Origin: Bacillota bacterium
GTDB lineage: Bacteria > Bacillota > Thermincolia > Thermincolales > UBA2595
NCBI GenBank assembly: GCA_021847735.1
Contig: JAJZQD010000019.1
Location: forward strand, 1 to 34,252
Length of the DNA stretch: 34,252 nt
Reading direction: 5' to 3'
Part shown: positions 4,733-33,091 of the stretch, in pieces
Layout of the letters: every line of letters begins with the position of its first letter
Numbering within the stretch: position 1 is the first letter of the stretch
The notes under the pieces: generated by a model
The model's database searches: none
What the model was told of the DNA's origin: nothing
The model's input: only the letters and a program-made list of their open reading frames with translations
Program-made: the position numbers and the translations under genes

Positions 4733-4752
4733 TTTGGAGGTGTTCTATCCTA

Positions 4753-5112: not shown

Positions 5113-5120
5113 ACCGGCAA

Positions 5121-5311: not shown

Positions 5312-5323
5312 TCTTTTCGAAAA

Positions 5324-5350: not shown

Positions 5351-5366
5351 GACTAAAAAATATTGC

Positions 5367-16792: not shown

Positions 16793-17533
16793 GTAGACAA
16801 TAGCGGCTGTTAGCATTTTTTGTTTCCCCAGCCTACTCCCCACAATTGTAAATCATAACCGTGAACCGAATGAACCCTATTTTGACAAGGAAGGGCGTCC
16901 CTGCCCTTACGCATCATCTCTTTTTATCACCATTATTCGACTTAACACAAGTCAAATCCTTTTCCTGGAAAGTTATGAATTGCGATATTAATCATGACCA
17001 CCATTTACTAGTTCTATTAAGTAGTTAAAACTCATCCTTTGTGTACTTTGTGACTTAGTGGTAATAATCCCCCGTCTTTTATCCGCGTAACATCCGCGTC
17101 CATCCGCGGCTGTCTCCCGTTTTTCCTGTTTCTTTTGGTTAACCGGCCATAAACAAAAAACGTGACTTAATCGGTCACGCTTAATCTCTGCGCCTTTGCG
17201 CACTGCGGTATCTTTTTCGGTTTTTTCCCCTTTTTTAGTTTACTTGGCCTGTTAAGTAATTAAAACTCAGACTTTGTGACTTAGTGGGACTTATCCCCTG
17301 TCTTTTATCCGCGTCATCCGTGTTCATCCGCGGCCGTTTTCCGTTCTATCTGTTCCTTTTGTTTAACCGGTCACTCTCCATCTCCGCGCTCTAGGTACGG
17401 GTACGGTTTTAATTGTCAATTTTCAATTTTCAATTATCAATTGTCAATTGTTCTCTGTGTCCTCTGTGCCCTCGTGGTTGCCCTTTCTTTCTATTTCCAC
17501 GAGGGCCTCCCCCCCTGCCTCTTACTTTTTTTA
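16793..17533. repeat. Non-coding tract of modular dispersed repeats
   Basis: No credible gene. Two ~125-bp direct repeats (17019-17148 and 17252-17373) share CTTTGTGACTTAGTGG, then TCTTTTATCCGCGT..CATCCGYGTYCATCCGCGGC, then GTTTAACCGG. Between and after them are TCTGCGCCTTTGCGCACTGCGG (17187-17208), a tandem TCAATTNT tract (17411-17449) and TCTCTGTGTCCTCTGTGCCC (17452-17471). A 10-bp stem GCCCTCGTGG/CCACGAGGGC (17468-17477 with 17497-17506) and the hairpin CGTGAC-N7-GTCACG (17161-17179) are also present. Peptide-like open frames here (for example 16988-17203 on the minus strand) are by-products of the repeats. Confidence 0.8.
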
Positions 17534-18883
17534 TCAGTGAATGCCGTGCTTTTCCATCCGGTAAATCAAGGCGGATCTGGTAATTCCCAACAGGCGGGCG
17601 GCCCTGGTTTGGTTGCCGCCGCTTTTTGCGAGGGCTTTTACTATCAAATCCTTCTCCAATTCTTCCAGGGAAACTCCCTGTTCGGGAAGGTCAATTAGCA
17701 GTGCCCCGGCAGTCTCGGCCTTGTCTGCCATCTCCCGCGGCAGGTAACCGGAGTTAACATAATCCTCACCACATAAAATCACAGCCCGTTCAACGGTATT
17801 TTCCAGCTCCCTGATGTTTCCGGGCCAGTGGTAACTACACATAATTTTGAGGGCTTCCGCTGTAAAACCCTTAATTTTTCGCCGGTAATCGTATTTCTTC
17901 AGGAAATGATCCACAAATTCCGGAATATCTTCCTTCCTCTCGCAAAGAGGGGCCAAATCAATAGGAATTACCTGTAAACGGTAATACAGATCCTCCCGAA
18001 AACCACCCTCCCGGACGGACTTTTTAAGGTTCCGGTTGGTGGCGGCAATTATCCTTGCCCCCATTTTGACTACTTCGTTTCCCCCAACCCGTTCAAAAAC
18101 CTTTTCCTGTAAAACCCTTAAAAGTTTAACCTGAATATGAGGAGGGATTTCTCCTATTTCATCAAGAAATATCGTCCCGCCGGAGGCTACCTCGAACTTC
18201 CCCTTTTTCCTGTTTATCGCACCTGTAAACGCACCCCGTTCGTAACCAAACAATTCGCTTTCCAACAGGTTTTCCGGGATAGCGGCACAGTTGACAGCTA
18301 TAAAAGGTTTATTAGCCCTGCTGCTCTGCAGGTGGAGCAGCCGGGCAACCACCTCTTTGCCGGTGCCGCTCTCACCCTCAATAAGAACCGTGGCAGGTGT
18401 GTCGGCAACTTTGGCTACGAGTTTTTTTATTTCCTCAACAGCTTGGCTTTTGCCAATTAAATCGGTGTTAAGTTTTTCACCCAGTTCCCCCCGCAGGTAG
18501 TCCACCTCACTGGCAAGCTCTACTACCTCCAGCGTGCGGCTGATTATTATCTTGAGTTCTTCCATATCAAAGGGCTTGGATATATAATCCACTGCCCCTA
18601 TTTTCATGGCTTCAATGGCGCTTTCCACCGTCCCATGGGCGGTGATCATGATTACCGGGATCCGGGGCTGTTCCCGCTTGATAGCCCGTAAGATGTCTAT
18701 TCCGCTTTCATCAGGCAGTTTAAGGTCAAGCAGTACCAGGTCAGGTCCCAGGGCCGCAAGCTTGGCCAAACCTTCTGCACCGTCAGCCGCAGAGGCGGTT
18801 TTATAACCCTCTTTGGCCAAAGCCTTCCCAATAATCCAGCGCATATGCTCTTCATCGTCAATAATCAATATCGTTGCTTCCAT
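17534..18883 (-). CDS. NtrC-family sigma-54-dependent response regulator
   Basis: A 449-residue protein from ATG 18883, 7 bp after the kinase stop. The receiver domain (1-~118) has Asp9/Asp10, phospho-acceptor Asp53 (LVLLDLKLPDESG) and the TAHG and SKPF motifs. The AAA+ domain (~135-375) has Walker A GESGTGKE, the sigma-54 contact loop ERGAFTGA, Walker B GGTIFLDEIGEIP and R-finger region FREDLYYRL. The C-terminal Fis-type helix-turn-helix is GGNQTRAARLLGITRSALIYRM. It is the last gene of the MacA/MacB operon. That operon has a sigma-54 promoter and two upstream dyads, so the natural reading is positive autoregulation by this protein. Confidence 0.97.
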   Translation of the reverse strand: MEATILIIDDEEHMRWIIGKALAKEGYKTASAADGAEGLAKLAALGPDLVLLDLKLPDESGIDILRAIKREQPRIPVIMITAHGTVESAIEAMKIGAVDYISKPFDMEELKIIISRTLEVVELASEVDYLRGELGEKLNTDLIGKSQAVEEIKKLVAKVADTPATVLIEGESGTGKEVVARLLHLQSSRANKPFIAVNCAAIPENLLESELFGYERGAFTGAINRKKGKFEVASGGTIFLDEIGEIPPHIQVKLLRVLQEKVFERVGGNEVVKMGARIIAATNRNLKKSVREGGFREDLYYRLQVIPIDLAPLCERKEDIPEFVDHFLKKYDYRRKIKGFTAEALKIMCSYHWPGNIRELENTVERAVILCGEDYVNSGYLPREMADKAETAGALLIDLPEQGVSLEELEKDLIVKALAKSGGNQTRAARLLGITRSALIYRMEKHGIH

Positions 18884-18890
18884 CCAAACC

Positions 18891-20366
18891 TCACCCCTCT
18901 GACCGGTCAACCGGCAGCGTGATACGGAAGACTGTTCCCCGCCCGGTGTCACTTGTCACTTCAACCTTGCCCCCGTGCATTTCAACTATCTTGTGCACCG
19001 TGGCCAACCCCAGGCCGGTGCCGGTGTTTTTGGTAGTAAAGAAGGGGTCAAACAACCTGTTAATATCCGATTCGGGAATACCATGCCCGTTATCAGCAAA
19101 ATCAATGACCACAGTATTGATATCCGCGCCGGTCCGCACCTGTAGTTGCCCCCCGTCAGGCATGGCTTCAACGGCATTGAAGATAAGATTTAAAAAGGCC
19201 TGCTTAAGTTTTTCCACATCTGCGTTAACTACGAGCGGTTCTACTGCCAAATCAATAGCTGTTTCAATTTTGTATTGTTGAAAATAGGACCTGGAAAAAA
19301 CCAGGATGGATTTTAGAATGTCATTAACATTAACCGGTTGAAATATCGGTGGGACAGGCTTCGCATAGTCAAGAAGCTCACGGATAATCTTATTCTGCCG
19401 TTCCACCTGTTCGTTTAAAACCATTAGATATTCCTGCATTTCGTCTTGTTTGCCGAACTCGTCCTGCATCACCTGGATTGTCGCCTTCATAATCCCCAGG
19501 GGGTTCCTGATTTCGTGGGCAACCCCCGCCACCAGTCGCCCCAAAGCCGCCAGCCGCGAAGATTTTTCCAGCTGTTCCTCCAGCATTGATTTCTGCTCAA
19601 CGGCATCTGCCATTTTATTAATGGCCGCCGAGATTTCGCCCAATTCTCCTGCCGTGGGCGGGGTTAGCCTGTAACCGGCGTCGTTTTCAAGTACTGCTAA
19701 GCCGGAAGTGACTTCTTTGACCCCCCGCTTCAGACGGGCCAGAATCCAGACAGTTGCTACTATACCAACGATTAATGAACCTGTTACCAGGATAAAAACC
19801 GCTCTAGTTACAAACCTGAACACAGTAAGGCCAGACTGGACCTGCTCCGCAATAAGAACGGCGCCTTTTACCTGCCCGCCGCTGACAACCGGCTCCGCCC
19901 TGCCAAGGAAGATTCCGCCCCGACGGTCTTCCACAAAGGTTTTTGGTTCTTTAATCGAAGAAACCTTAATGTCAAAAAACTCGTCGTCTCCCTGCCCGTT
20001 CTGCTTTCGCGGGAGCACATAACGGTTTTCCCTTGACCTTTCCCCGTAGAAGTTATGCATACCCATCTCCGGTAAATATAACCCTACAATTACTCTGGGA
20101 TTGGTGCTAACTATACCGTCCGCCTGATTTGCAAAGTATTTCCTGATGTCTCCGGGGCTTTGGCCTTTTTGCATAAAAGTGGCCAGGCCCCCGCTTAATC
20201 CCCGCGTAATAACTTTAAGCTTCTCTTGCTTGTCAGCCAATACCTCCCGGTCATATCTGGTAGAAACCATGTGCATGGAGATAAAGGCCATCAACAAGAT
20301 GGCCAATACCAGCGAAATAATTGCACCTATTTGAAACCGCAGGGTTTTTCTGAGATTTGCCAACAT
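18891..20366 (-). CDS. NtrB-like membrane sensor histidine kinase
   Basis: A 491-residue protein starting at ATG 20366. TM1 is at ~14-34 and TM2 at ~188-211, enclosing a ~150-residue extracytoplasmic sensor with GLYLPEMGMHNFYGE and GRAEPVVSGGQVKGAVLIAEQ, typical of single-Cache sensors. A HAMP domain (~212-262) follows, then HisKA with phospho-acceptor His284 (GVAHEIRNPLG), N box NLIFNAVEAMPDGG, DNGHGIPESD, F box LFDPFFTTKNTGTGLGL and the final G box. It pairs with the NtrC-type regulator immediately downstream. The sensor probably detects an envelope stress or a substrate handled by the upstream export genes. All catalytic boxes are intact. Confidence 0.95.
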   Translation of the reverse strand: MLANLRKTLRFQIGAIISLVLAILLMAFISMHMVSTRYDREVLADKQEKLKVITRGLSGGLATFMQKGQSPGDIRKYFANQADGIVSTNPRVIVGLYLPEMGMHNFYGERSRENRYVLPRKQNGQGDDEFFDIKVSSIKEPKTFVEDRRGGIFLGRAEPVVSGGQVKGAVLIAEQVQSGLTVFRFVTRAVFILVTGSLIVGIVATVWILARLKRGVKEVTSGLAVLENDAGYRLTPPTAGELGEISAAINKMADAVEQKSMLEEQLEKSSRLAALGRLVAGVAHEIRNPLGIMKATIQVMQDEFGKQDEMQEYLMVLNEQVERQNKIIRELLDYAKPVPPIFQPVNVNDILKSILVFSRSYFQQYKIETAIDLAVEPLVVNADVEKLKQAFLNLIFNAVEAMPDGGQLQVRTGADINTVVIDFADNGHGIPESDINRLFDPFFTTKNTGTGLGLATVHKIVEMHGGKVEVTSDTGRGTVFRITLPVDRSEG

Positions 20367-20405
20367 GTGGTTTCACATCCTAGTACACTGAGAGTCAATC
20401 AACCT

Positions 20406-21170
20406 TTAACTATAAACTTTTTGCAGCAGGATTTCTAACAGGAAGTTGTAATCGCCTGAAACACGCCTTCCGAAACCGCGGCTCTGCCCAACCCTCAGTC
20501 GTTTACCTCTTTCGCCTTCTTCCCATTTATTCATACCCTTGCCTCCCCCCCGGCGTGCAGCCTTAAGGAGGTTATTGTTCTTTTCTACGGAGTATTTTCG
20601 GACTCCTGCCGCAGCCAAAACGGCTTTGATTTCTTTGGCCTTCTGGACCAGGTAGGCCTCGTCTGCGTTGGGTTTTTGGCCGATTTCCCTCAGGATGGGC
20701 AGAATAATATCCTTTTCTTCCTGGGTCAGGCTAACGGTTGGGTTTTGACTCCCTGACGTTAACTTTGTGTTGAAGATTCCCTTATCTAAGCGCTGACTGC
20801 CTTTAAAACCTTTGACTGCAGCTGTGTTTTTGACAAAGTCTTTCTGTTCCGGGGTCAACACACCCTGCATAGCTGCCGCTTTACTGCTGTCAGTGAAAGA
20901 GGAGCTGGGTTTATCGGCCAGTTCACGGACCAAAGGAAGCAGTTTTTGGGCCTGCTCTTTGCTCAGGGCAAGCTTTGGGAATTGCTCGAGATTAATGATT
21001 CCTAAAGCTGTCTGGTAGGCCTGGCTTGAGAATATCCGCTTCATTGTTCTAAACTGGTAGTATTTGATACCACCCGCGGTTGCCGCTACCGCAAAAACGA
21101 CCAGCAATACAGTGATAACCCACTTTCTGGATAACCGTCCCTGCAGCCTCCCCCATAAACCTTCTTCCAT
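20406..21170 (-). CDS. Single-pass membrane protein with two repeated helical units
   Basis: A 254-residue protein from ATG 21170 with AGGAGGGG upstream, 12 bp after the permease stop. A short cytoplasmic N-terminus precedes one TM segment (~17-36, WVITVLLVVFAVAATAGGIKYY). Outside are two similar units: LALSKEQAQKLLPLVRELADKPSSS...TPEQKDFV (~67-115) and VSLTQEEKDIILPILREIGQKPNAD (~146-170). The L(S/T)xEQ/EExxxxLPxLRE pattern recalls LTxxQ-type proteins. The last ~50 residues are Arg/Gly/Lys-rich. It lies between the permease and the sensor kinase, so it may be an accessory or signalling component of the export operon; no function is known. Confidence 0.75.
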   Translation of the reverse strand: MEEGLWGRLQGRLSRKWVITVLLVVFAVAATAGGIKYYQFRTMKRIFSSQAYQTALGIINLEQFPKLALSKEQAQKLLPLVRELADKPSSSFTDSSKAAAMQGVLTPEQKDFVKNTAAVKGFKGSQRLDKGIFNTKLTSGSQNPTVSLTQEEKDIILPILREIGQKPNADEAYLVQKAKEIKAVLAAAGVRKYSVEKNNNLLKAARRGGGKGMNKWEEGERGKRLRVGQSRGFGRRVSGDYNFLLEILLQKVYS

Positions 21171-21182
21171 GTCATTCCCCTC

Positions 21183-22346
21183 CTATTCAAACCTTAGGGC
21201 TTCTATCGGATTAAGTTTGGCGGCTTTGTTGGCAGGATACATACCGAAGACTATACCTACCAGTACAGCAAAACCGAAAGCCATCCCAACAACCTTTAAA
21301 GACATACTTATTTCAACAGCCATTAACGAGCCAATGATGCGGGATACAAGTGCACCGACAAGGATACCGATAATCCCACCGATACCGCTGACAACCACTG
21401 CCTCAATGAGGAACTGCCTAAGGATATCCCGCCTTTTAGCGCCTATGGCCTTACGGATGCCTATCTCCCGGGTTCGTTCGGTAACAGTAACCAGCATAAT
21501 GTTCATAATCCCTATCCCTCCGACAAAGAGGGAAATACCGGCGATTCCGCCTAACATCAAAGTGAGCATCCCGGTAACCTGGTTAACTGTGGACAGCATT
21601 TCAACCTGATTGGAGACCCTATACACATCGGTATTCTTGGTCTTCCTGTATAAATAGTTGTCCAGCTGGGCCACAACGGTGTCAACATCACCCGGGGTCG
21701 CAGCCTGGATATAAACAGACCTGACACCCTTGCTGTTCATCACCCGCTCTGCGGTCGTCAGCGGAATCACTACCTTGTCGTCATTGGATCCAAACGCGGC
21801 TGCGCCTTTTTCCACCAGTAGGCCCACAACTTTGAAATTGATACCATTGATTTTTATAGTTTCTCCGATAGGACTCCCTTGTGCGAATAACTGGCGCGAA
21901 ACCTCCGTTCCCAAAAGCACAACCTTTTGCCGGAAACTCAGGTCGATGGGCATGATGAACCGTCCCTCCTGGACGTGGGTATTGCGAACCTGTTCATACT
22001 CGCTGTTGGTCCCTTCCAGGCCGGTATCATACTTTTTATTGCCGTATTTAACAGTCACGTTACCGCTGATTACAGGTGCAATTCCCCGTATGCCGGGCCG
22101 GTTCTTCCACTCCATGACTTCATTATAAGTCAGTGTAATAGGGGTATTGCGCATGCTAATGGTCACCAGATTTGAACCCAAGCCCTGAATCGAGCCTGTA
22201 ACAGACTTGGTAGCCCCCTGAGCTAATGAAACCAAGACTATTACTGCCGCTACACCGATAATCACGCCCAGCATCGTCAGAATAGATCGCATCTTGTTGG
22301 CGCGGATACCCGCCACGGCAAGCTTTATGACCTGAATAAGATTCAT
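21183..22346 (-). CDS. MacB-type ABC transporter permease (FtsX fold)
   Basis: A 387-residue protein. The start ATG 22346 overlaps the stop of the ATPase (TGATG), so the two are translationally coupled. TM1 (~20-42, MRSILTMLGVIIGVAAVIVLVSLAQG) is followed by a ~210-residue MacB periplasmic core-like domain, and TM2-4 lie in the C-terminal 120 residues. The conserved MLVTVTERTREIGIRKAIGAKRRDI loop and the ending AAKLNPIEALRFE are signatures of the MacB/FtsX/LolCE family. Together with the ATPase and the MacA-like adaptor it makes a mechanotransmission-type exporter for peptides, lipids, toxins or drugs. Split ATPase and permease genes are usual in Gram-positive relatives. Confidence 0.95.
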   Translation of the reverse strand: MNLIQVIKLAVAGIRANKMRSILTMLGVIIGVAAVIVLVSLAQGATKSVTGSIQGLGSNLVTISMRNTPITLTYNEVMEWKNRPGIRGIAPVISGNVTVKYGNKKYDTGLEGTNSEYEQVRNTHVQEGRFIMPIDLSFRQKVVLLGTEVSRQLFAQGSPIGETIKINGINFKVVGLLVEKGAAAFGSNDDKVVIPLTTAERVMNSKGVRSVYIQAATPGDVDTVVAQLDNYLYRKTKNTDVYRVSNQVEMLSTVNQVTGMLTLMLGGIAGISLFVGGIGIMNIMLVTVTERTREIGIRKAIGAKRRDILRQFLIEAVVVSGIGGIIGILVGALVSRIIGSLMAVEISMSLKVVGMAFGFAVLVGIVFGMYPANKAAKLNPIEALRFE

Positions 22347-23032
22347 CAGGCTACCTCCCCGTCATGAACGATGCGCCCGTCATGCATTCTAATAACCCGC
22401 CCGGCCTGACCGGCAATCTGCAAATCGTGGGTGATAAGGATGACGGTTTTCCCGTCCCTGTGGAGCCCTTTGAGAATTTCCATGATTTCCAAACCCGAAC
22501 GCGAATCCAGGTTGCCTGTAGGCTCATCAGCCAGGATAACCGGAGGGTCACCTGCTAAAGCCCTGGCGATAGCCACCCTCTGCTGCTGACCGCCGGAAAG
22601 CTCAGTCGGGGTATGCTCTAAACGGTCAGATAACCCGACCAATTCCAGGGCTTTGGCGGCACGTTCCCGCCTTTCCACTGCCCCCATCCCCTGGTAGATC
22701 AAAGGTAATTCCACATTTTCCAGGGCGGTCAGCCTGGCCAGTAAATTAAAGCTTTGGAAGACGAACCCTAGCTTTTTGTTTCTGATATCAGCCAAATCGT
22801 CTTCGTCCAGCTTGCTGACCTCTTTGCTGTCAAGAAAATACTGGCCGTCTGTCGGCACGTCCAGGCACCCGAGCATATTCATAAGAGTTGATTTACCTGA
22901 ACCGGAAGGGCCGATAATTGCGACCATCTCTCCGTTTTTGATATTCATGCCCACTCCGTCAAGGGCCTTAATTGTAACGGGGCCGGTCTGATAATACTTA
23001 CATATATTAACAAGTTCAATCAAGACTTTCAC
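22346..23032 (-). CDS. MacB/LolD-type ABC transporter ATPase
   Basis: A 228-residue ATPase with Walker A GPSGSGKST, Q loop FVFQSFNLLARLTALENVELPL, ABC signature LSGGQQQRVAIARAL, Walker B VILADEPTGNLD and H loop ITHD. It is the standard MacB/LolD/FtsE-like cassette that drives the downstream permease. The start is uncertain: GTG 23032 sits within the AAGAAGG ribosome site, and TTG 23023 has better spacing, so the N-terminus may be three residues shorter. It begins 18 bp after the MacA-like stop. Confidence 0.95.
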   Translation of the reverse strand: MKVLIELVNICKYYQTGPVTIKALDGVGMNIKNGEMVAIIGPSGSGKSTLMNMLGCLDVPTDGQYFLDSKEVSKLDEDDLADIRNKKLGFVFQSFNLLARLTALENVELPLIYQGMGAVERRERAAKALELVGLSDRLEHTPTELSGGQQQRVAIARALAGDPPVILADEPTGNLDSRSGLEIMEILKGLHRDGKTVILITHDLQIAGQAGRVIRMHDGRIVHDGEVA

Positions 23033-23050
23033 CTTCTTTTGATACTGGCT

Positions 23051-24712
23051 TTAATGTAAACCGCCGAACCCGCCACCACCGCCCATGCCGCCGCGGTTCC
23101 CGTTGGTGCCGCTGCTTCTCACAACAGTTGGCAGAACTACCTTGTCTCCTTCACTTAGACCGCTGGTTATTTCAATATTAGTTTCATTGTAAAGACCGGT
23201 TTCCACAGGCCGGAGTGCGCCCTGCCGGGCCCCGGCATTTTTTTGCTGACTGGTATTCTGTCCCGTTGCCAACATGACAAACTTTTTGCCCTGTCTTTCC
23301 TGCACCGCTTCTATCGGTACCACTAAAGCTTGGTCTTTGCGGTTAACCAAAATTTCCACATTGGCCGTCATCCCAGGTTTCAGACCGTTGGCTTCGTCCA
23401 ACAACACAGTTACATCAAAGTTGGCGACATTGTTTTGCACTATTCCCTGGTTTCCCACCTCAGTGACGGTGCCCCCGAACTTGCTGTCAGGCAGGGCATC
23501 AATAGTGACACTGGCCTTCTGCCCTATCTTAACCTTGGCAATATCAACCTCATCCACAGGTACAGTAACACTCATGCCGGATGTACCGTCTATAATTGCC
23601 AGAACCTGGCCGGGTTTGACCTCATCCCCAACCAGCGGCCCGTTTTGTACCTCGGAAGCAGAACTGTTACTCGATCCTGTCGAAGTATCCCCGGTTCCTG
23701 TCTGGTTGAAGCTCAAAATGCCGGTGACAGGAGCATATATCTTGTAGTCCGTCAGCTGTTTTTCGATGTTTGCGATACCTAACCGCGACTGCTGCAGCTT
23801 TAAACTCTGGCTGTTCTTCTGAACGTTCAGGGTATCATTGTTGACACTGGCCAGCCTCTGCCCTTTCTTGACATTAGAGTTTTCGTCAATAAACAGGTTC
23901 TGTACGGTGCCGGACACGCCGGCCGTTACAGTTCGTATTTCCGCCCAGTCAAATGGCCCCAGCCCGTAACCATATTCAGTACCCTGTTTCGTATGTACAA
24001 CCGCCTGACCTTTAACTCCCGGCGCCAAACCACCCGGATTGGCCACTGCCACTGTAACGTTATACAGCCGTGTGCCATCAGGGTCCGCCTTACCACCCCG
24101 GTCAACTTTTTTTACCCAGCCGGGTAAAACCGCCAGCGACAAATCGGGTACAGTGACATCGGCTTTTTGGCCTACTTTAATATTTCCCACGTCAGTGAAC
24201 GGGATTACCAGGATTAAACTGCTGGTATCCTGTACAGTCATTAAAGCTGAACCCTTCTGCACATCCTGACCCTTACTAACCTGAATAGATGTTACCTGTC
24301 CGCTGATGGGCGAATATACTTGCTGATCTTCAATCTCTTGACCTGTAGTGCCCATATCGAGCTCCGCCTGCCTTAGGTCTAACTGAGCTTTGGTAACTTC
24401 CGCCTGCACACTGCTTGAATCGAGTTCAAAAAGCAGGTCCCCTTTTTTTACCTGCTGCCCATTCGAAAAACCAATACTTGTAATGGTACCACTAACTTTG
24501 GAAGTTATGTTTCTGGTAGCTACGGGTACAACCGCGCCGTTGGCTGATACGGTCACCTCAATGGATTCCTTTTTAACCGCAACAGTAGCCGTCGCCACTT
24601 GGGAAGACCCCCGGCTCCCCAAAAAATACCATCCCAATAAGCCTATCAGGATAATTCCGACCCCCCCGGCTAATACCAACTTCCGCTGCTTTTTGCTTAG
24701 ATTAAATGCCAT
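23051..24712 (-). CDS. MacA-like membrane fusion protein with doubled lipoyl/hairpin module
   Basis: A 553-residue protein. ATG 24712 is chosen because GGAGGGG lies 6 nt upstream and the sigma-54 start site (~24742) would exclude longer starts. TM anchor ~13-31 (LVLAGGVGIILIGLLGWYFLG). Then come two HlyD-type modules in series: lipoyl-like NGQQVKKGDLLFELDSSSVQ plus SPISGQVTSIQVSKGQDVQKG, and again AGVSGTVQNLFIDENSNVKKGQRLASVNN plus YAPVTGILSF...GDEVKPGQVLAIID, followed by the beta-barrel and membrane-proximal domain (DALPDSKFGGTVTEVG, GLKPGMTANVEILV). It is ~150 residues longer than typical MacA (~370-400). The tail GGMGGGGGFGGLH is glycine-rich. First gene of the sigma-54 operon. Confidence 0.93.
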   Translation of the reverse strand: MAFNLSKKQRKLVLAGGVGIILIGLLGWYFLGSRGSSQVATATVAVKKESIEVTVSANGAVVPVATRNITSKVSGTITSIGFSNGQQVKKGDLLFELDSSSVQAEVTKAQLDLRQAELDMGTTGQEIEDQQVYSPISGQVTSIQVSKGQDVQKGSALMTVQDTSSLILVIPFTDVGNIKVGQKADVTVPDLSLAVLPGWVKKVDRGGKADPDGTRLYNVTVAVANPGGLAPGVKGQAVVHTKQGTEYGYGLGPFDWAEIRTVTAGVSGTVQNLFIDENSNVKKGQRLASVNNDTLNVQKNSQSLKLQQSRLGIANIEKQLTDYKIYAPVTGILSFNQTGTGDTSTGSSNSSASEVQNGPLVGDEVKPGQVLAIIDGTSGMSVTVPVDEVDIAKVKIGQKASVTIDALPDSKFGGTVTEVGNQGIVQNNVANFDVTVLLDEANGLKPGMTANVEILVNRKDQALVVPIEAVQERQGKKFVMLATGQNTSQQKNAGARQGALRPVETGLYNETNIEITSGLSEGDKVVLPTVVRSSGTNGNRGGMGGGGGFGGLH

Positions 24713-24741
24713 GCATTTCCCCTCCGAAATAGATTTCAACA

Positions 24742-24768
24742 TAATTATACCAAGCAATTTCCGTGCCA
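24742..24768 (-). promoter_or_regulatory. Sigma-54 promoter of the MacA/MacB/two-component operon
   Basis: On the minus strand, TGGCAC (24768-24763) and TTGCT (24757-24753) are separated by GGAAA, matching the sigma-54 consensus TGGCAC-N5-TTGCW with correct GG-N10-GC spacing. Transcription should begin near 24742, giving a ~30-nt leader with its own ribosome site before ATG 24712. Confidence 0.9.
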
Positions 24769-24800
24769 GACAGGGAGTCCCTTGTCCTGCACGGATACTA

Positions 24801-24827
24801 AAGAAAGAACCCGGGTTTATACCGGGT
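24801..24827 (-). terminator. Probable terminator of the MFS gene, inside the enhancer-promoter spacer
   Basis: On the minus strand ACCCGG (24827-24822) and CCGGGT (24814-24809) pair around a 7-nt loop and are followed by TCTTTCTTT. It would stop reading from the MFS gene before the sigma-54 promoter. Confidence 0.6.
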
Positions 24828-24831
24828 CATG

Positions 24832-24868
24832 TGTCTGAAAACAGACATTTGTCGTCTAAAAACAGACA
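24832..24868. promoter_or_regulatory. Two tandem 16-bp dyads, candidate enhancer (UAS) for the NtrC-type regulator
   Basis: TGTCTG-AAAA-CAGACA (24832-24847) is a perfect dyad. A near copy, 14 of 16 identical, follows at 24853-24868 with the CAGACA half conserved. Starts are 21 bp apart, two helical turns, so both lie on one face of the helix. Centres are about 98 and 119 bp upstream of the predicted sigma-54 start site, the normal place for NtrC-family enhancers. Confidence 0.8.
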
Positions 24869-24878
24869 GTGGGTTACC

Positions 24879-26369
24879 TTACCCTTTATTGATGTTAGAA
24901 TTCAACGGGCCGCGGACCAGTGAAGTAATCACGGCGGCACAGGCCAGAGCGGCACCCACCAGATAGGTGAATTGCATCGCTCCTGTGAAAGCCTGAACCT
25001 TTAACTCTGCACCGGCAAGGCCTTTTGCCGTCAAAACCCTATTGAGATATTCCAAGCGGCCGCTGAAGAGAGCGCCAGAAATTGCTACCCCCAGTACCAT
25101 GCCAATATTGCGCATGGTGGCAAGAAAACTGGAAGCGATACCGCGCCTGTTGGGAGGAACCGTACCCATTATAGCACTGTTGTTTGGGGTCTGAAACATC
25201 CCCCCACCCAGCCCGATGATAACCAGGGCAACAATAATGCTCAGAGGGCTCGAATTGATATGCAAATTACTCAAGAGCCACATCCCGAACGCAGTAACAG
25301 CCATTCCGAGAGAACTCAGGTAGCGCGTATCTACCCGGTCGGATATGGCGCCGCTGATTGGCGCTACTATCATTGTCGCCAGGGGTGTGGGAATAAGCAT
25401 CAGGCCCGCCTGGGAAGGGGACATTTGGCGAAGCTGCTGCAGGTAGAAAGGCATAACCAGAATAACGGAAAAGGCGGCCATGTAATTTATCAAGGCTGAT
25501 AAGTTGCCCATAGCAAACAGGCGGTTGCGGAACAAGGAAAGGTCGACCATAGGGAATTTTATTCTATTTTCCATAAACACAAACAAAACCAACAGGCCCA
25601 GGCCCAAGGCCAGAGACCCAAGGATATACGGGTTCCGCCAGCCAGTCTTTTCGGCATAACTGAGGGGAATTAACAGACTGATAAGGGCCAGGAATATTGT
25701 AACAGCGCCCTTTATGTCAAATGACTCAACCTGGCGACCCTTGATACTTGGGATAACTTTGGCGGCCCAGAGAGAACCTATAATTCCTATAGGCAGGTTG
25801 ATAAAAAAAATACTCGGCCAGCCAAAGCGGGCAGTCAGGAACCCGCCCAGTACCGGCCCGGTTGTAAGGGCAACGGAGACCGAAACAGCTATGATCCCCA
25901 GAGATTTGCCCCGGTTCCGGGGAGGTGTAACATCAGTGATAATGGCTGGTCCCATAGCCATCATCATGCCGGCGCCGATTGCCTGCAGGGCCCGAAAGGT
26001 AATAAGCAGGGCAATTGTAGGCGCCATACCGCAGAGTAAGGAACCCGCAGTAAAAATAACAAAACCGGAAAGGTAAATCCGTTTGTGGCCGTACAAATCA
26101 CCCAACCGCCCGTAAGTAAGGATAAGGCTGCTAATGACGAGCAGGTAGGACATAATAACCCACTCCACAGTACCCAGAGAAGTATGAAAACCGGCCCTGA
26201 TGGTCGGGAGAGCTATATTCACCACACTTGAGTCCAAGGGACCCATAAAGGTCCCAATAGCTATGGCTATAAGGATTTGTATTCGCCTGCCCCGGGTCAG
26301 ATTGTCATATAGGCCATGTGCCGGTTTGGCGGCATTGGGCTGGGGCATAGAGGCGTTGTCTGGATTCAT
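24879..26369 (-). CDS. DHA2-type (EmrB/QacA) MFS drug exporter, 14 TM
   Basis: A 496-residue protein starting at ATG 26369. It has about 14 TM segments. Motifs: D1-type LDSSVVNIALPTI in TM1 (~44-56), motif A GRLGDLYGHKR in loop 2-3, motif C-like GPVLGGFL in TM5, and a second motif A-like ISDRVDTRYLS. These mark the proton-coupled DHA2 family that exports drugs and other toxic compounds. Its likely repressor, a MarR protein, lies immediately upstream (26842-26417) on the same strand, about 50 bp away. The substrate cannot be told. Confidence 0.93.
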   Translation of the reverse strand: MNPDNASMPQPNAAKPAHGLYDNLTRGRRIQILIAIAIGTFMGPLDSSVVNIALPTIRAGFHTSLGTVEWVIMSYLLVISSLILTYGRLGDLYGHKRIYLSGFVIFTAGSLLCGMAPTIALLITFRALQAIGAGMMMAMGPAIITDVTPPRNRGKSLGIIAVSVSVALTTGPVLGGFLTARFGWPSIFFINLPIGIIGSLWAAKVIPSIKGRQVESFDIKGAVTIFLALISLLIPLSYAEKTGWRNPYILGSLALGLGLLVLFVFMENRIKFPMVDLSLFRNRLFAMGNLSALINYMAAFSVILVMPFYLQQLRQMSPSQAGLMLIPTPLATMIVAPISGAISDRVDTRYLSSLGMAVTAFGMWLLSNLHINSSPLSIIVALVIIGLGGGMFQTPNNSAIMGTVPPNRRGIASSFLATMRNIGMVLGVAISGALFSGRLEYLNRVLTAKGLAGAELKVQAFTGAMQFTYLVGAALACAAVITSLVRGPLNSNINKG

Positions 26370-26416
26370 GTCATCCCTCCGTTGCCAAATAAGATTTCTA
26401 ATATTCTTACTCTACT

Positions 26417-26842
26417 CTAATCAAAATTGAAATAAATTCTATTAAGCAAATTCTTCAGCTGTTCGACTTCTTCTGTCTTAAAACCCTTCAGCGCAACTTC
26501 CAGTGTCTCTTTGACAACCGGTATCAATATGTTTTTAAGTTCCCGTCCTTCTTTGGTCAAGAAAATTAAAAAAGCTCTCCTGTCATCGGGGTCGACTTCA
26601 CGCCTAATAAACCCTTTATCTTCAAGCTTATCAAGAATCCTGGTTATGTTGGGCTGGTCCTTAAAGCTTTTCTCTGACAGCACTTTTTGGGAAACCCCGT
26701 CTTTTTCCCACAGGCGGTTCAGCAAACCCCACTGTTCAGTTGTAATGTCATAGGGTTTAAAGTTTTGGTGCAGGCAGTTCTTCATTTTTGATGCTGTCCT
26801 GCTGATAATAAACCCCACTGAGTCATCCAGAACAAACTTCAT
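26417..26842 (-). CDS. MarR-family transcriptional regulator
   Basis: A 141-residue protein starting at ATG 26842 with AAAGGGAG 5 nt upstream. It shows the MarR winged-helix layout: dimerising helices at both ends, helix-turn-helix around VSQKVLSEKSFKDQPNITRILDKLEDKGFI (~residues 50-80), and the wing RREVDPDDRRAFLIFLTKEG (the conserved D-x-R-D/RR wing). It presumably represses itself and the MFS exporter downstream until a toxic ligand binds. Confidence 0.95.
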   Translation of the reverse strand: MKFVLDDSVGFIISRTASKMKNCLHQNFKPYDITTEQWGLLNRLWEKDGVSQKVLSEKSFKDQPNITRILDKLEDKGFIRREVDPDDRRAFLIFLTKEGRELKNILIPVVKETLEVALKGFKTEEVEQLKNLLNRIYFNFD

Positions 26843-27007: not shown

Positions 27008-27149
27008 AGTATTAACAAAAACTGAATATGAAGCAAAATAGCTGGTATAACTGATGTTGTCAACCCTAACCATTTTTGGGATAGGGTCACGTCAGCCACA
27101 AACCAGATTAGATTGTCAGTTGCAACTATTAAACAAGGAGGTCAGTAGG

Positions 27150-28184
27150 ATGCAGGATCGTCGGAAAACCATTCTTGCTATCTGCGGTATTTTATTATTT
27201 TTGGTGTTTTTTGCGGTGGCCTTTTCCAGTGTAACGGCCAAGGACAGTAAATCGTCCTCCAAACAGGGTAACAGCCAGGACGATAATAAAAGCTGTACCG
27301 GCTGCCACGAAATGAACCCGGAAGTAGCGACCTGGCAGGTATCCTCTCACAGTAAGATACCCTGTACCGCATGTCATCAGGTAAAACCTTCTGATTTTCA
27401 GGCCCAGCATGACAGTCAAAGTTTTACAAAGCCAATTAAGATGACAGACGCTATCCCCAGTAGTGTTTGCGAGCAGTGCCACTCACCTAACCGGGTAGCA
27501 ACTACCTCAGGTGACCTGATAATCCCCCATGACAGGCATGCCGCCGCCGGAGTTGCCTGTGTCAAGTGCCATGCCGGTGTGGTCCACGGCAAGATTGCGG
27601 AACGCGGCTCGGCATCCGATGGGAAATACGAATCCTGGGATCAGGATTTTGCTAAAAAACAGGCTACCATGTATTACCGGGAACCCAGTATGTGGACCTG
27701 CATCGGTTGCCACAGGCAGCTGAAAGTAACCCGTAGATGCGGCGTCTGCCACACTGAAATACCCAGCCTGCCTTCCCATGATAACCCCACTTGGAAGTCA
27801 GACCACGGCAAGTCTGCACGGGCCGATATCGGAGTATGTACCAAGTGTCACGTAACCCCAGGTTCACCCACGTTTGTGACGCCTTCTACCGGGGATAAGG
27901 CCGCAGATTTCGCCCGGGCCCAGGAGTTCTGTTACAGTTGTCATTTGCAGCGGCCTGCAATGCATGAAAATTCAATGATTCCAGTTCACCCAAGCAAGGT
28001 GGCACAGAGAGGCATCCAAAACTGCCTGACCTGCCATAACCCGGATCCACCTAAGCCGGAAGCCAAGGTAACAGGCACTTATTGTAACCAGTGCCACTGG
28101 TTACCGACCACCCAGCAATCTAAAGCCGGGGCTGCTCCCGCCGGAGCCCAAAATGAAACTGCACAAAAACAGGGTTCATTATAA
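27150..28184 (+). CDS. Decaheme c-type cytochrome with N-terminal membrane anchor
   Basis: A 344-residue protein from ATG 27150, with AAGGAGG 7 nt upstream. An uncleaved or signal-type TM helix (~8-27, ILAICGILLFLVFFAVAFSS) places the rest outside the membrane. Ten CxxCH motifs: CTGCH, CTACH, CEQCH, CVKCH, CIGCH, CGVCH, CTKCH, CYSCH, CLTCH and CNQCH. The first pair and spacing (CTGCHEMNPEVATW...SSHSKIPCTACH) resemble NapC/NrfH-type quinol-linked cytochromes. Many free His could be distal ligands. The C-terminus is Ala/Gln-rich. Likely role: carrying electrons from menaquinol across the cell envelope. No reductase gene is beside it; a nested hairpin follows at 28227-28262. Confidence 0.93.
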   Translation: MQDRRKTILAICGILLFLVFFAVAFSSVTAKDSKSSSKQGNSQDDNKSCTGCHEMNPEVATWQVSSHSKIPCTACHQVKPSDFQAQHDSQSFTKPIKMTDAIPSSVCEQCHSPNRVATTSGDLIIPHDRHAAAGVACVKCHAGVVHGKIAERGSASDGKYESWDQDFAKKQATMYYREPSMWTCIGCHRQLKVTRRCGVCHTEIPSLPSHDNPTWKSDHGKSARADIGVCTKCHVTPGSPTFVTPSTGDKAADFARAQEFCYSCHLQRPAMHENSMIPVHPSKVAQRGIQNCLTCHNPDPPKPEAKVTGTYCNQCHWLPTTQQSKAGAAPAGAQNETAQKQGSL

Positions 28185-28226
28185 CAGGCCCGGACTGTAC
28201 TAACTGAACAAAATAACTAGACTGGT

Positions 28227-28262
28227 AGCCAAGGTATTTCCGTAAGGAGTAATACCTTGGCT
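28227..28262 (+). ncRNA. Perfect 12-bp hairpin with nested GNRA-type loop between two genes
   Basis: AGCCAAGGTATT (28227-28238) pairs fully with AATACCTTGGCT (28251-28262). The loop TCCGTAAGGAGT can itself form TCC-GTAA-GGA with a GUAA (GNRA) tetraloop. No T run follows, so it is a structural element (processing or attenuation) more than a terminator, located 43 bp after the decaheme stop and 25 bp before the next start. Confidence 0.55.
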
Positions 28263-28287
28263 GCTGTTTAAAAAGGCAGTGACTAAT

Positions 28288-29355
28288 ATGCGCATACGGC
28301 TACGCCTGATTTTTACCCTTTCTATACTGTTGGGCTTAATGGGGAGCCAGGTATTTATTACTGTTGGCCTAGTGAGCCATCTGGGCATTACCTTTGCTGA
28401 CATTTCACAAAAACACCTTGTTCAGATAGAAAGAATTAACCGGATAAATCAGAAGCTGGTAATGACTATGGCGGACCCCGCCAGAGGGATGAATTCCAGT
28501 TCCCCGGAAGCCGTGGACCTTAAGGAAATGGATTCGCTGGTGGCATCTTATAAGAAAAACTATGTAGGGTCACCCGAACAACTGGCCGCCCTTCAGGACA
28601 GCTACAACGAATTTAAACGCAATTATGGGTCATTCAGGCACCAAATTAAAAACGGCCTGCCACCGGGCGGGCAGACCTTTAGTTCTTTACAGGATAGCTA
28701 TTTCAGTCTGGTAGTTGCGGTAAACAGCTTACGGGATCAAAACATTTTACAGGTGAGAGAAGCTTTGGCTAGTAACTACCTGGTGGCGAAACAGACTTTT
28801 TATTTATTGTTAATCGCGCTTTGCCTCGTATCGGTTATCGGAATTGTCTTTGGTTGGTATGTGGCCCGTTCCTTTAGTCAAGGATTGAATACGATGTTCA
28901 CTGCTATTCGCAACGTAACCAAAGGCGACCTGTCTCAACCGGCACGCTGGGACAATCCCGATGAATTCGGCCACCTGGCCAAAGCTTTTAATGTGATGCT
29001 GGGCTCTTTACTGAGGGCCCGCCAGGAAACCGACCGGGCCCACGAAGAGGCCTTGGAGAGTCGTGACGAACGCATTCAACTACTTCGGCAGCAGCTTACC
29101 GAAACTGCCCAGGCCCAGGACTACCGCGAAACTGAAAGGCAGAGAATGATACAGGAAATCCGGCAGCAGACCACCCTCGTATTAACAACTGTCAGCCAGG
29201 TACTGAGCAGTTTGGAACAGCAAATGCCGGCTTCCGGCCCGCAGACAGGTGAAATAGCCGCCCTTAAGGCCCTGACCGTTTCTGCCATTGATAATATTGG
29301 CAGCCTGGATTCAAGCAGTTTGTTGGAAGAAGAGGATTACCCGGAATTACTGTAA
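28288..29355 (+). CDS. HAMP-domain sensor protein without kinase or chemotaxis output domain
   Basis: A 355-residue protein; ATG 28288 is preferred to GTG 28279, although its ribosome site (AAGG) is weak. TM1 ~5-28, then a ~145-residue all-helical extracytoplasmic domain like the 4HB-MCP sensor (ISQKHLVQIERINRINQKL...), TM2 ~171-193 (FYLLLIALCLVSVIGIVFGWYVA), and a HAMP domain (~195-247) with NVTKGDLSQPARWDNPDEFGHLAKAFNVML. The rest is coiled coil (ARQETDRAHEEALESRDERIQLLRQQL) and a short Leu/Glu tail. Neither HisKA/HATPase nor an MCP signalling hairpin is present, and the stop is followed by a clean terminator, so it is not a truncation by frameshift. It may signal through a partner, or act as a cofactor of a kinase elsewhere. 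Confidence 0.85.
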   Translation: MRIRLRLIFTLSILLGLMGSQVFITVGLVSHLGITFADISQKHLVQIERINRINQKLVMTMADPARGMNSSSPEAVDLKEMDSLVASYKKNYVGSPEQLAALQDSYNEFKRNYGSFRHQIKNGLPPGGQTFSSLQDSYFSLVVAVNSLRDQNILQVREALASNYLVAKQTFYLLLIALCLVSVIGIVFGWYVARSFSQGLNTMFTAIRNVTKGDLSQPARWDNPDEFGHLAKAFNVMLGSLLRARQETDRAHEEALESRDERIQLLRQQLTETAQAQDYRETERQRMIQEIRQQTTLVLTTVSQVLSSLEQQMPASGPQTGEIAALKALTVSAIDNIGSLDSSSLLEEEDYPELL

Positions 29356-29370
29356 CGGTAACTAATACAA

Positions 29371-29401
29371 GAACTCCTTTTCTTAGGGGGTTCTTTTTTT
29401 T
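29371..29401 (+). terminator. Intrinsic terminator of the HAMP sensor gene
   Basis: GAACTCC (29371-29377) pairs with GGGGTTC (29387-29393) with one G-T pair, followed by eight T. Confidence 0.85.
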
Positions 29402-29765
29402 GCCCCATTCTACGGTAGTCACACTCTGAAAGAGATGCCGCCTAAAAGGAAAACACCGAGTACACTGATTACACAGAGAGTTTAGGGAACCGGTATCTCT
29501 CCGCCTTACGGCTCCGGGAAGGCAGGAGGTTTGTTCCACAAACTTTCCAATTGTATATATAAGGAAATGCCAATTACCTCTCTGTTCTCATCTTTTCTCT
29601 GTTGCCCTCTGTGTTACATTCTCCGCTCTTATCAGCGTGTATCCGTGGCTAAGTGAACTCGTTCAGCTAAAGCTGAACATCGAAACTTCAGTGGGGGACT
29701 CTACCCCCACTGAAGCAGAAAAGTGGAAACTCCACCTAATAGAAGGTGGAGTCTTGGAATTGGGA
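29402..29765. repeat. Non-coding tract: dispersed repeat modules and three tandem hairpins
   Basis: No gene seen. 29441-29485 (CACCGAG/CACAGAGAG) and 29575-29650 (TCTCTGTTGCCCTCTGTG; ATCAGCGTGTATCCGTGGC) are members of the same repeat family as 16.8-17.5 kb. They are followed by three clean hairpins: GTTCAGCT/AGCTGAAC (29661-29678), a 12-bp stem CTTCAGTGGGGG/CCCCCACTGAAG (29686-29715) and ACTCCACC/GGTGGAGT (29729-29752). The hairpin series resembles the right ends of IS200/IS605-type elements (which encode guide-like RNAs), but no tnpA or tnpB is near. Confidence 0.6.
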
Positions 29766-29788
29766 TAAAAAAAGCCCAATAAAGGGCT
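29766..29788 (-). terminator. Intrinsic terminator of the NrfD respiratory operon
   Basis: On the minus strand AGCCC and GGGCT (complements of 29784-29788 and 29773-29777) pair around a 6-nt loop, followed by seven T. It lies 28 bp after the last gene of the operon. Confidence 0.85.
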
Positions 29789-29815
29789 CAAGGTAACCAT
29801 TTTTCATGCCAATTT

Positions 29816-30127
29816 TTAGTTGGGAAATAGTTTTTCACCCTCCTCAGTTAGATCGGCAGTATTTGTGGACCTTACAAAATACAGGACGCTAAGTACGAGT
29901 ACCACAAAGCCTAAAGTCAAAACAAAGGATATGACATTATAGGGGGGCCAAATTGCAATGATAATCAAGACCATACTCACGGCAGAGATGGCAACCCCCA
30001 ATAACCCCACCAGGAAATAACGGGCGATATTTTCCCAAAGTCCCTGGCGGTAACCGATTACGAGTCCTCCAACGCTAAGGCCTAGTGCCAGCGTCAAGAT
30101 GAGGGCCATAATTGTCCAAATCCTCAT
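29816..30127 (-). CDS. Small membrane protein, paralogue of its upstream neighbour
   Basis: A 103-residue protein; ATG 30127 is chosen 6 nt after GGGAGGA. Three TM segments (~3-25, ~38-62, ~66-88). It shares a pattern with the gene upstream: G-x-x-G/S-A-V-x-M-V before a WPPxN motif (IIIAIWPPYNVISF). Function unknown. Last gene of the operon with the tetraheme cytochrome, ferredoxin and NrfD; perhaps an assembly or structural subunit of that complex. Confidence 0.75.
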   Translation of the reverse strand: MRIWTIMALILTLALGLSVGGLVIGYRQGLWENIARYFLVGLLGVAISAVSMVLIIIAIWPPYNVISFVLTLGFVVLVLSVLYFVRSTNTADLTEEGEKLFPN

Positions 30128-30452
30128 TGCCATTCCTCCCATCCTGGGATATGCAGGCGCCGACAGTCCCGGTTACAGCTGCTTTGCCGGTTTTCCCTTT
30201 TCCACCCAATGCAACCGCAGTCATAATACCGGCAAACGCCAGTACGCCCAGGGTTAACATAATATTGAGTGGCGGCCAAAGGACAAGAAAAGTTACCCCG
30301 ACCATGAAGACCGCTGAGACTATTCCTCCTAGTACCGCTGCAACCCAACGAATGGATGGACTGAGGTTAATCCGGTAGAGGAAGAAATAGACACCCAGGA
30401 AGAAACCAAACACCGCAGCAAGACCGATAATCAATACCAAACTTGTAATCAT
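30075..30452 (-). CDS. Small membrane protein with WPPxN motif
   Basis: A 125-residue protein from ATG 30452 with GGGAGG upstream. Three TM segments (~3-25, ~35-58, ~60-82) and the motif LVLWPPLNIMLTL aligned with WPPYN of the next gene; the two look like a tandem duplication. The last ~40 residues (GKTGKAAVTGTV...) are hydrophilic and overlap the start of the next gene by 53 bp, which is unusual. A late frameshift may have extended this protein. Placed 49 bp after the NrfD gene; role unknown. Confidence 0.7.
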   Translation of the reverse strand: MITSLVLIIGLAAVFGFFLGVYFFLYRINLSPSIRWVAAVLGGIVSAVFMVGVTFLVLWPPLNIMLTLGVLAFAGIMTAVALGGKGKTGKAAVTGTVGACISQDGRNGNEDLDNYGPHLDAGTRP

Positions 30453-30501
30453 TTTTCATACCTCCCTTCATATTGTCGAGGGGGAATTACCGGCAATTTT
30501 T

Positions 30502-31806
30502 TTATAGCCGGTCATCCTCCCGCCACTTCCCAAACAAATCTGTCCTAGCTATATACCGTTGACTGGCAGTTGAAGTATACCTCTCCCTGACGGTGGCAAG
30601 AACCCCTTCTTCCAAGGGTTCGCCCAATTCCGGCTCGAATCCCCTGCGCCTTTCGGGTTTTGCTTCTTCGCCATCCATCCAAGGTGGCAGAATATAGGCC
30701 AGGACTGCCAGAATCAATAACGGAAGTATCAGGAACCCTATTGTTGGCACAATACCTTCTGCGAAAATAGGGAAGTGAAACTGGGAATAACCTGAGAGAC
30801 TTTTGGAAACCAACTGCCCGCCGACCACCACATTAAACCTCATGGCCAAAACACCGACAAGCACCAGTGACCCGGAAACGATTGTTCCAATCTGCCTGAT
30901 TTTAACCGGCAAACGTTCCATCCGGGAAAACATCAATAAGAAGAAGGGTACTACCATGCCCATCGACAACTGAATGCCAAAATAACTGAAAGGAATAATT
31001 TGTGTAATTAAACCGCGAACCGCTGGCCATTCTTCTTTACCTTCATACCCTAAATGGATAACTTCCAGTATCTCCAGGACAAAGGCGAAAATCAGGAAAA
31101 CCCAGAGATACTTATTCATCGACATAATGCAAGCAAAATCAATCTTCTTACGCCTAATCCAACAGGCAGCAGCATAAACCACAATCAGCAGCGCGATACC
31201 TGATACAATTGCTGACAGTAAGAATATAACAGGCATTAGAGGTGTTGCCCACCAGGCGTTGGCTTTAATGGCCCCAAAGATAAACCCTACATAACCATGT
31301 AAAAATGCCGCTGATGGAATCCCGAGAATAGCCAGGAAAGTTATAACCTTGTGATCTGTATGAAGCGCCTCCTGGGAAACATCTTTGGCGCCTAAGGTCA
31401 GTAAATTGTAACCGGTCTTGGCAAAACCGGTGCGCGTTTCAGAGAATCCTATGATGTCCGGCCGGTAAATGAACCATATTTCCAACACTACGATAATCAA
31501 ATAAAAGCTGTAAATATAGCCGAACCCCGCCATCGCCGACGTGGGATTGGGTGTCCACATCAGGTTTAGGGCTCTTAAAGGCTGCCCAAGATGAGAAATC
31601 AGGGCCAGAGGCGCCACTACCAAAACAGCAAGAGCTGAAATTAGTGACAACCTGGAAACAGGCTTCAGGTCAGACACTCCGAAAACATGATAGAGAGAAG
31701 AGACAATAAATGCTCCGGCTACTAAGCCGGTAAGGTAGGGATACAGTACGATAAACAAGCCCCAGTTAATTTCAATTTCGTTAGGATAAACATAGCCAAA
31801 CAACAT
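30502..31806 (-). CDS. NrfD/PsrC-type membrane subunit of a quinone oxidoreductase
   Basis: A 434-residue membrane protein starting at ATG 31806, which overlaps the end of the ferredoxin gene. It has about 9-10 TM segments. Typical NrfD elements: WGLFIVLYPYLTGLVAGAFIVSSLYHVFG in TM1, PLALISHLGQPLRALNL after TM2, TPNPTSAMAGFGYIYSFYL, and SAAFLHGYVGFIFGAIKANAWWATPLMPVIFLLSA. Family knowledge: NrfD subunits bind menaquinone at the outer face and pass electrons to or from an iron-sulfur partner. The C-terminal ~65 residues are charged and cytoplasmic. With no catalytic molybdoenzyme, the acceptor is likely the cytochrome encoded two genes upstream. Confidence 0.93.
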   Translation of the reverse strand: MLFGYVYPNEIEINWGLFIVLYPYLTGLVAGAFIVSSLYHVFGVSDLKPVSRLSLISALAVLVVAPLALISHLGQPLRALNLMWTPNPTSAMAGFGYIYSFYLIIVVLEIWFIYRPDIIGFSETRTGFAKTGYNLLTLGAKDVSQEALHTDHKVITFLAILGIPSAAFLHGYVGFIFGAIKANAWWATPLMPVIFLLSAIVSGIALLIVVYAAACWIRRKKIDFACIMSMNKYLWVFLIFAFVLEILEVIHLGYEGKEEWPAVRGLITQIIPFSYFGIQLSMGMVVPFFLLMFSRMERLPVKIRQIGTIVSGSLVLVGVLAMRFNVVVGGQLVSKSLSGYSQFHFPIFAEGIVPTIGFLILPLLILAVLAYILPPWMDGEEAKPERRRGFEPELGEPLEEGVLATVRERYTSTASQRYIARTDLFGKWREDDRL

Positions 31807-32582
31807 TATTTCACCACCTCATCTAACCCAATATAGTATGCCTTCGGTTCTGTTCCCATGTCAGGTTTTAACACTCTAATCCGTTGTTTTTTAACTATTT
31901 GTGTGACTTCACTGTTAGGGTCTTTGAGGTTCCCGTATTTTCTTGCCCCTACTGGACAAACGGTGACACAAGCCGGAAGCATTCCTTTCTGTGTCCGGTG
32001 GTAACACCAGGTACATTTATCAGCTACCTTTAGCTCGGGGTGAAGGAACCTGGCCCCATAAGGACAGGCCTGAATGCAGTAGCGGCAGCCGACACAACGC
32101 TTGTTGTCAACAAGTATCACACCGTCCCCGGTCTTGTAGGTTGCACCAACCGGGCAAACCTGGACACATGGCGGGTTTTCACATTGGTTACAGAGCTTAG
32201 GTACAAAAAACTGTTTCCCATCTGTTTTTTCAGCGGGCTCGAAATCAAGTCCGCCGTTAGGTGAGTCTATGTTAACCTGACCCTCTCCGGACTCCACATA
32301 CCGCTCAACCCAGGTTCGGAAAACTTCCTTATCTAGTGGCACGCCGTTTTCAAGCTTGCAGGCCTTCACGCATCTGGCACAGCCAATGCACTTTTCAGTG
32401 TCAACTACGAAACCCCACTCTTTTCCTGCCCAAATCTCCGGCCATGATTTGCCTTTCAGTACTTCCTGGGCCACAGATGTTTTCTGTAACACAGCGAGGC
32501 CGCCAAGCGGGGCTAAAATACCTGCGGCTACAATCTTACCTGCGGTGGCTAAAAAATCCCGACGAGATACTTCCTTTTTCAT
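31806..32582 (-). CDS. Tat-exported four-cluster [4Fe-4S] ferredoxin (DmsB/PsrB/NrfC type)
   Basis: A 258-residue protein from ATG 32582, overlapping the preceding stop. The N-terminus carries a twin-arginine signal SRRDFLATAGKIVAAG (Arg7-Arg8), so the folded protein is exported. Four Cys clusters are visible: CIGCARCVKAC (~65), CNQCENPPCVQVC (~131), CVGCRYCIQAC (~163) and CTWCYHRTQKGMLPACVTVC (~192). The third and fourth are spaced as in NrfC/PsrB. It should relay electrons between NrfD and the tetraheme cytochrome on the outside of the membrane. All cluster ligands are present. Confidence 0.95.
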   Translation of the reverse strand: MKKEVSRRDFLATAGKIVAAGILAPLGGLAVLQKTSVAQEVLKGKSWPEIWAGKEWGFVVDTEKCIGCARCVKACKLENGVPLDKEVFRTWVERYVESGEGQVNIDSPNGGLDFEPAEKTDGKQFFVPKLCNQCENPPCVQVCPVGATYKTGDGVILVDNKRCVGCRYCIQACPYGARFLHPELKVADKCTWCYHRTQKGMLPACVTVCPVGARKYGNLKDPNSEVTQIVKKQRIRVLKPDMGTEPKAYYIGLDEVVK

Positions 32583-33082: not shown

Positions 33083-33091
33083 TGTTTCCAC

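Follow-up and report, generated by a model that had tools for sequence, protein, structure and literature searches.

Introduction

In Bacillota, sigma-54 has mostly been linked to carbon, amino-acid and fermentation metabolism, via one-component activators. A survey of Clostridiales distinguished 39 groups of sigma-54 activators and reported that the activators of Bacillota adjoin their targets and that about 10% of them carry receiver domains; neither MacA/MacB nor any other drug-type exporter is a target among those 39 regulons (PMC6615313). An autoregulated sigma-54 system is ZraPSR from E. coli, which has few targets: the genes of the system itself and that of a helical accessory outside the cytoplasm (PMC7657598).

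Exporters of the MacB type have been described under other forms of control. YknWXYZ from Bacillus and SpMacAB from Streptococcus are made up of an adaptor, a separate ATPase and a MacB-fold permease encoded in one operon, and the source describes no kinase or sigma-54 regulator within those operons (PMC5985334). MacAB from E. coli and Salmonella is under PhoPQ, and in the BceAB-BceRS systems of Firmicutes an exporter of the MacB superfamily has a membrane kinase and a regulator dedicated to it (PMC5985334).

The present analysis deals with a window (the whole stretch of DNA that was analysed, 34,252 nucleotides) from a member of the Bacillota, in which a self-contained sigma-54 circuit very likely controls one MacAB-type (YknXYZ-like) exporter. 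An earlier note on this DNA had regarded MacA/MacB operons under sigma-54 in Gram-positive-like bacteria as no standard theme. In the open-licence literature, no paper connecting sigma-54 or RpoN with MacB or MacAB in its full text was found. The parts and the regulatory logic are known, and their combination appears to be unreported.

Organisation of the operon

Six co-directional genes run along the minus strand from 24712 to 17534 in the order macA, macB (ATPase), macB (permease), helical protein, kinase and response regulator, and they are joined by overlaps or by gaps of no more than about 40 bp:

23051-24712, minus strand: macA-like membrane fusion/adaptor protein, 553 aa, N-terminal TM; Pfam HlyD_D23 and HlyD_3, TIGR01730 above cut-off
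22346-23032, minus strand: MacB-type ATPase subunit, 228 aa; Pfam ABC_tran, top NCBIfam match MacB over residues 1-225
21183-22346, minus strand: MacB-type permease, 387 aa; Pfam MacB_PCD and FtsX
20406-21170, minus strand: membrane-anchored helical accessory protein, 254 aa; no Pfam family
18891-20366, minus strand: sensor histidine kinase with two TM helices, an extracytoplasmic CACHE/PAS-like domain and HAMP
17534-18883, minus strand: NtrC-family response regulator with receiver, sigma-54 AAA+ domain with GAFTGA and Fis-type HTH; PF00072, PF00158, PF02954

The start codon of macA is the ATG at 24712; for the regulator, a GTG at 18952 was rejected in favour of the ATG at 18883. The exporter is of the MacAB/YknXYZ type, with an HlyD-type adaptor, a MacB-type ATPase and a permease carrying MacB_PCD and FtsX, all within a single operon. 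Like YknXYZ, which has the co-transcribed membrane accessory YknW, it is accompanied by a membrane accessory. As a candidate for the exported substrate, a membrane-active toxin, an antibiotic or a metabolite is most likely.

The sensor kinase and the regulator

The regulator belongs to the sigma-54-dependent NtrC family, as judged from its receiver, AAA+ and Fis-type HTH domains, its GAFTGA motif and the conserved target promoter and sites described below. The two-component genes had been read in the earlier note as an NtrB/NtrC pair. Assignment to the nitrogen pair was rejected, with 459 bits against an ntrC cut-off of 558.6 and 104 bits against an NtrB cut-off of 240; instead of NtrB, the kinase is a membrane-spanning sensor of the AtoS/ZraS type (NCBIfam scores of 340 bits for AtoS and 211 for ZraS). 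Its TM helices lie at about residues 13-31 and 190-208, and the extracytoplasmic domain has a predicted CACHE/PAS-like fold (pLDDT 75), for which the nearest solved structures, with modest scores, are the sensor domains of WalK and of chemoreceptors.

The likeness to ZraPSR consists of a membrane kinase and an NtrC-family regulator, the regulators being 44% identical over 445 aa and the kinase cores 35%. Nevertheless, the proteins are not equivalogs of ZraR and ZraS (413 bits against a cut-off of 760, and 211 against 479), the sensor domains are unlike, and the output here is a MacAB exporter encoded in one co-directional operon. The locus also differs from BceAB-BceRS, since the MacB-type permease is accompanied by a separate adaptor, the kinase has a sensor domain of its own and the regulator is sigma-54-dependent, whereas BceR is an OmpR-type regulator.

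Distribution of the operon

Homologous operons were sought by means of the sensor domain of the kinase, and the operon was found in 5 of 399 sampled genomes of the phylum. A scan of the species-genome collection with this domain gave three carriers, namely Firmicutes bacterium HGW-Firmicutes-8 (G002), Bacillota bacterium SKS3.bin89 (G132) and Carboxydocella thermautotrophica (G059); the scan of the same collection with MacA as query gave zero matches. The operon of exporter, kinase and regulator is known from two other families of Bacillota and from another genus of the window's own family. The contig of G132 stops inside the kinase gene, and no regulator can be read there. The readable regulators share GAFTGA, which is invariant across three aligned homologues, and a nearly identical C-terminal helix.

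The genome of the window contains a second, truncated copy of the operon on another contig (C30), with downstream genes about 50-76% identical. That contig begins within macA, and the promoter region of the copy is absent from the assembly.

In four members of the window's family (G001, G005, G007, G008) the orthologous exporter, with a permease 69-71% identical, stands together with an OmpR-type system: the kinase lies upstream of macA, the OmpR-type regulator precedes the kinase where the locus reaches that far, and these operons are without a sigma-54 box and without an exact dyad. The tree of ATPase plus permease has two changes, and the NtrC-type operons formed a single clade in 24% of its bootstrap trees. 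As the same exporter is found under different control systems in close relatives, the exchange of control systems can be compared directly.

The promoter and the paired upstream sites

The following elements lie between macA and the gene upstream of it:

24744-24752, minus strand: extended -10-like TGGTATAAT overlapping the promoter, a possible basal sigma-A element
24753-24768, minus strand: sigma-54 promoter TGGCACGGAAATTGCT, with -24 TGGCAC and -12 TTGCT, no mismatches
24808-24828, minus strand: hairpin resembling a weak terminator, past the end of the upstream MFS gene; it separates the upstream sites from the promoter
24832-24847, minus strand: UAS1, the proximal predicted regulator site, a perfect 6+6 dyad TGTCTGTTTTCAGACA
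24853-24868, minus strand: UAS2, the distal predicted regulator site TGTCTGTTTTTAGACG, whose tandem partner is kept in G002, G132 and G059

The sigma-54 box is located about 40 bp upstream of the macA start. The 2.18-Mb assembly contains only 4 perfect -24/-12 sites and not one match to the pattern when reversed. The two upstream sites, of 16 bp each, are 21 bp apart, and when the 200 bp upstream were shuffled 2000 times with dinucleotides preserved, an equally good pair never arose. The box before the MacA-like gene, the two dyads and the unbroken six-gene operon ending in an NtrC-type activator with intact GAFTGA had all been pointed out in the earlier note, and all are present in the sequence.

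In the relatives, a sigma-54 box likewise stands immediately before macA (TGGTATGAAAATTGCA in G002, TGGCACGCAAATTGCT in G132 and TGGCATGCAAATTGCA in G013 and G059). A tandem pair matching TGTCTGTTTTCAGACA is found in all four lineages, with spacings of 21, 20, 22 and 23 bp; in each of them the third-best match is at background level, and 0 of 2000 dinucleotide shuffles reached the observed pair. Besides, the window and Carboxydocella, which belong to different families, have an identical 16-mer, placed at -79 and -78 respectively when counted from the box.

Dyads starting about 10 bp past the stop codon of an MFS gene could also be taken for the terminator of that gene. It is extremely unlikely that they are such a terminator rather than regulator sites, even though the separate hairpin just downstream of them is itself weakly terminator-like. 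The dyads are not followed by a T-run in the window, the site unit is tandem in all four lineages, and in Carboxydocella the same 16-mer stands at the same distance from the box while the upstream gene is divergent, for which the terminator reading was rejected. The dyads are best read as candidate sites of the regulator.

The exact 16-mer occurs in one copy per genome in the window's genome (G000), G013 and G059, each time before the MacAB operon. Six relatives in which a different two-component pair, or none, goes with MacAB have zero copies; no sigma-54 box was found at the MacAB loci of those six either. Promoter and paired sites are kept with the operon across three families and missing from MacAB homologues with another or no two-component pair. 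This conservation, which the earlier note had proposed as a check, supports its reading of a self-contained, autoregulated sigma-54 circuit driving the exporter.

Regulators of the NtrC family often have several targets. The pair might for this reason be a global regulator with the exporter as one target among others, and the presence of two paralogous pairs in the window's genome, whose regulators probably share a site, would fit such a role. This is nonetheless unlikely, because there is one exact site per genome and because sites with two mismatches are no commoner elsewhere than in genomes free of the pair, a comparison made on an incomplete assembly from which the promoter of the paralogue is missing. 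Very probably, the gene block controls only itself.

The rpoN gene and the choice of sigma factor

Searches for rpoN, the gene for sigma-54, gave no hit in the assembly to which the window belongs (62% complete) or in that of G002 (91%). It is present in 7 of 8 family members, and it stands intact alongside the operon in the genomes of Carboxydocella and G132. The gene order in relatives is whiA-rpoN-cggR-gap-pgk-tpi, and in both rpoN-negative assemblies whiA lies near a contig end; the beginning of rpoN was expected after whiA in both genomes, but the little sequence left there does not belong to rpoN. As gap, pgk and tpi, which adjoin it, were likewise not found in these two assemblies (in a search without a positive control of its own), the absence of rpoN is probably an assembly gap. 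A missing piece of the assembly would explain it, the loss of all these genes being much less likely. The presence of rpoN, on which the earlier note had made the circuit depend, is seen in two carriers and not in the incomplete assembly of the window itself; the circuit is not taken to be refuted on this ground, though the organism of the window may conceivably lack the gene.

The undetected rpoN and the position of TGGTATAAT, directly 3' of the -12 element, would both suit transcription mainly by sigma-A from this extended -10, with a class II-like or inactive regulator and the sigma-54 box as a relic. Such an arrangement is very unlikely: the sigma-54 box is kept in G002, G132 and G059 and the extended -10 is conserved in none of them, the regulator retains GAFTGA, the motif that contacts sigma-54, and two carriers have an intact rpoN. 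The extended -10 may still provide basal expression in the window's organism, next to the sigma-54 promoter that is favoured here for the operon.

Perfect boxes are also found elsewhere in this genome. A second gene for a sigma-54 activator, whose product has both GAF and PAS domains (4180-6437 of locus L009, contig C5), has a perfect box TGGCACGGAATTTGCT about 235 bp downstream, the target of which lies past the contig end. Another perfect box, TGGCACTGATTTTGCT (3172-3187 of locus L010, contig C55), stands after a transporter gene and about 0.5 kb upstream of a gene for an APC-type permease. One of the four perfect boxes falls within a protease-like gene, where chance is its probable origin.

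Proposed regulation

From what is known of these protein families, the membrane kinase would sense an extracytoplasmic signal through its CACHE/PAS-like domain and phosphorylate the co-encoded NtrC-family regulator. The regulator would then bind both sites of the tandem, which are centred near -98 and -119 with a distance of about two helical turns, and its AAA+ ring, acting through GAFTGA, would remodel the sigma-54 RNA polymerase at the -24/-12 box. In this manner the whole operon, its own kinase and regulator included, could be switched on from near zero. Because the kinase-regulator pair closes the operon, a positive feedback loop is predicted, and the circuit may represent a stress response.

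The operon represents a conserved, probable instance of an exporter placed under a sigma-54 two-component pair; its candidate sites are known to the base, and one target per genome is predicted. Since one of its carriers, Carboxydocella thermautotrophica, is cultured and has a complete genome, the circuit can be tested.

The helical accessory protein

The fourth gene had been described in the earlier note as an unknown repeat protein belonging to the response. The repeat holds in part, as the module L[ST]xEQ..LLP.LREL...LTPEQ recurs in part within the protein; its place in the circuit has to be revised, for it is an accessory, anchored in the membrane, that the operons of the other carriers lack. 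In G002 and Carboxydocella, where the permease gene is followed directly by the kinase gene, searches gave no copy, and the operon of G132 leaves no room for one. Owing to this absence, the protein is dispensable for the basic circuit; as an optional accessory it may tune the kinase or the pump.

A paralogue is encoded in a second locus (L012). A profile built from the two proteins detected weak homologues in other Bacillota (E from 1e-4 to 0.01), both TM-anchored ones beside OmpR-type two-component genes and lipoproteins, with the common module L[ST]xEQ..LLP.L..L..........LTxxQ. Two loci, L091 and L095 (in G157 and G153), encode membrane-anchored helical proteins with an LTxEQ..LLP module, divergent from OmpR-type two-component genes. 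Possibly, these are members of a kinase-associated extracytoplasmic family that has yet to be described.

The shared module is reminiscent of ZraP/Spy/CpxP. Membership of this LTXXQ family was considered and rejected, as there is no PF07813 match and hhalign gave 17.7% probability over 17 columns; by profile, the accessory thus differs from that of ZraPSR. PF13801 gave a single weak match (E 0.03) in one homologue, and a fold search with the predicted structure, which is too uncertain (pLDDT 57), gave no matches.

A wider reading, tentative and rather doubtful, is that of an envelope-defence module in which the sigma-54 pair would act on a single MacAB exporter, as a self-amplifying switch of the all-or-none kind. 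In such a module the helical protein would be a new extracytoplasmic modulator of the kinase, similar to ZraP/CpxP in function and separate in ancestry, that also serves OmpR-type systems.

Genome surroundings

Directly upstream of the MacAB operon lies a second, ordinary drug-export-like unit (24879-26842, minus strand), in which the MFS transporter gene is preceded by one for a MarR-type regulator and a perfect sigma-A promoter stands at 26913-26884. Further on, positions 27054-33091 encode multihaem c-type cytochromes and a membrane complex of cytochrome, Fe-S and NrfD proteins, which indicate anaerobic respiration.

On the other side, the minus strand at 8550-9748 contains an apparently split kinase, next to an OmpR-type regulator (9748-10440). 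One ORF of this kinase, of 260 aa, stops after HAMP (8966-9748), and the other, of 153 aa, overlaps it (8550-9011); the arrangement suggests a frameshift or a sequencing error. Past the regulator gene of the operon, at 17400-17500, there are AT-rich repeats and an inverted repeat of 10 bp (GCCCTCGTGG ... CCACGAGGGC).
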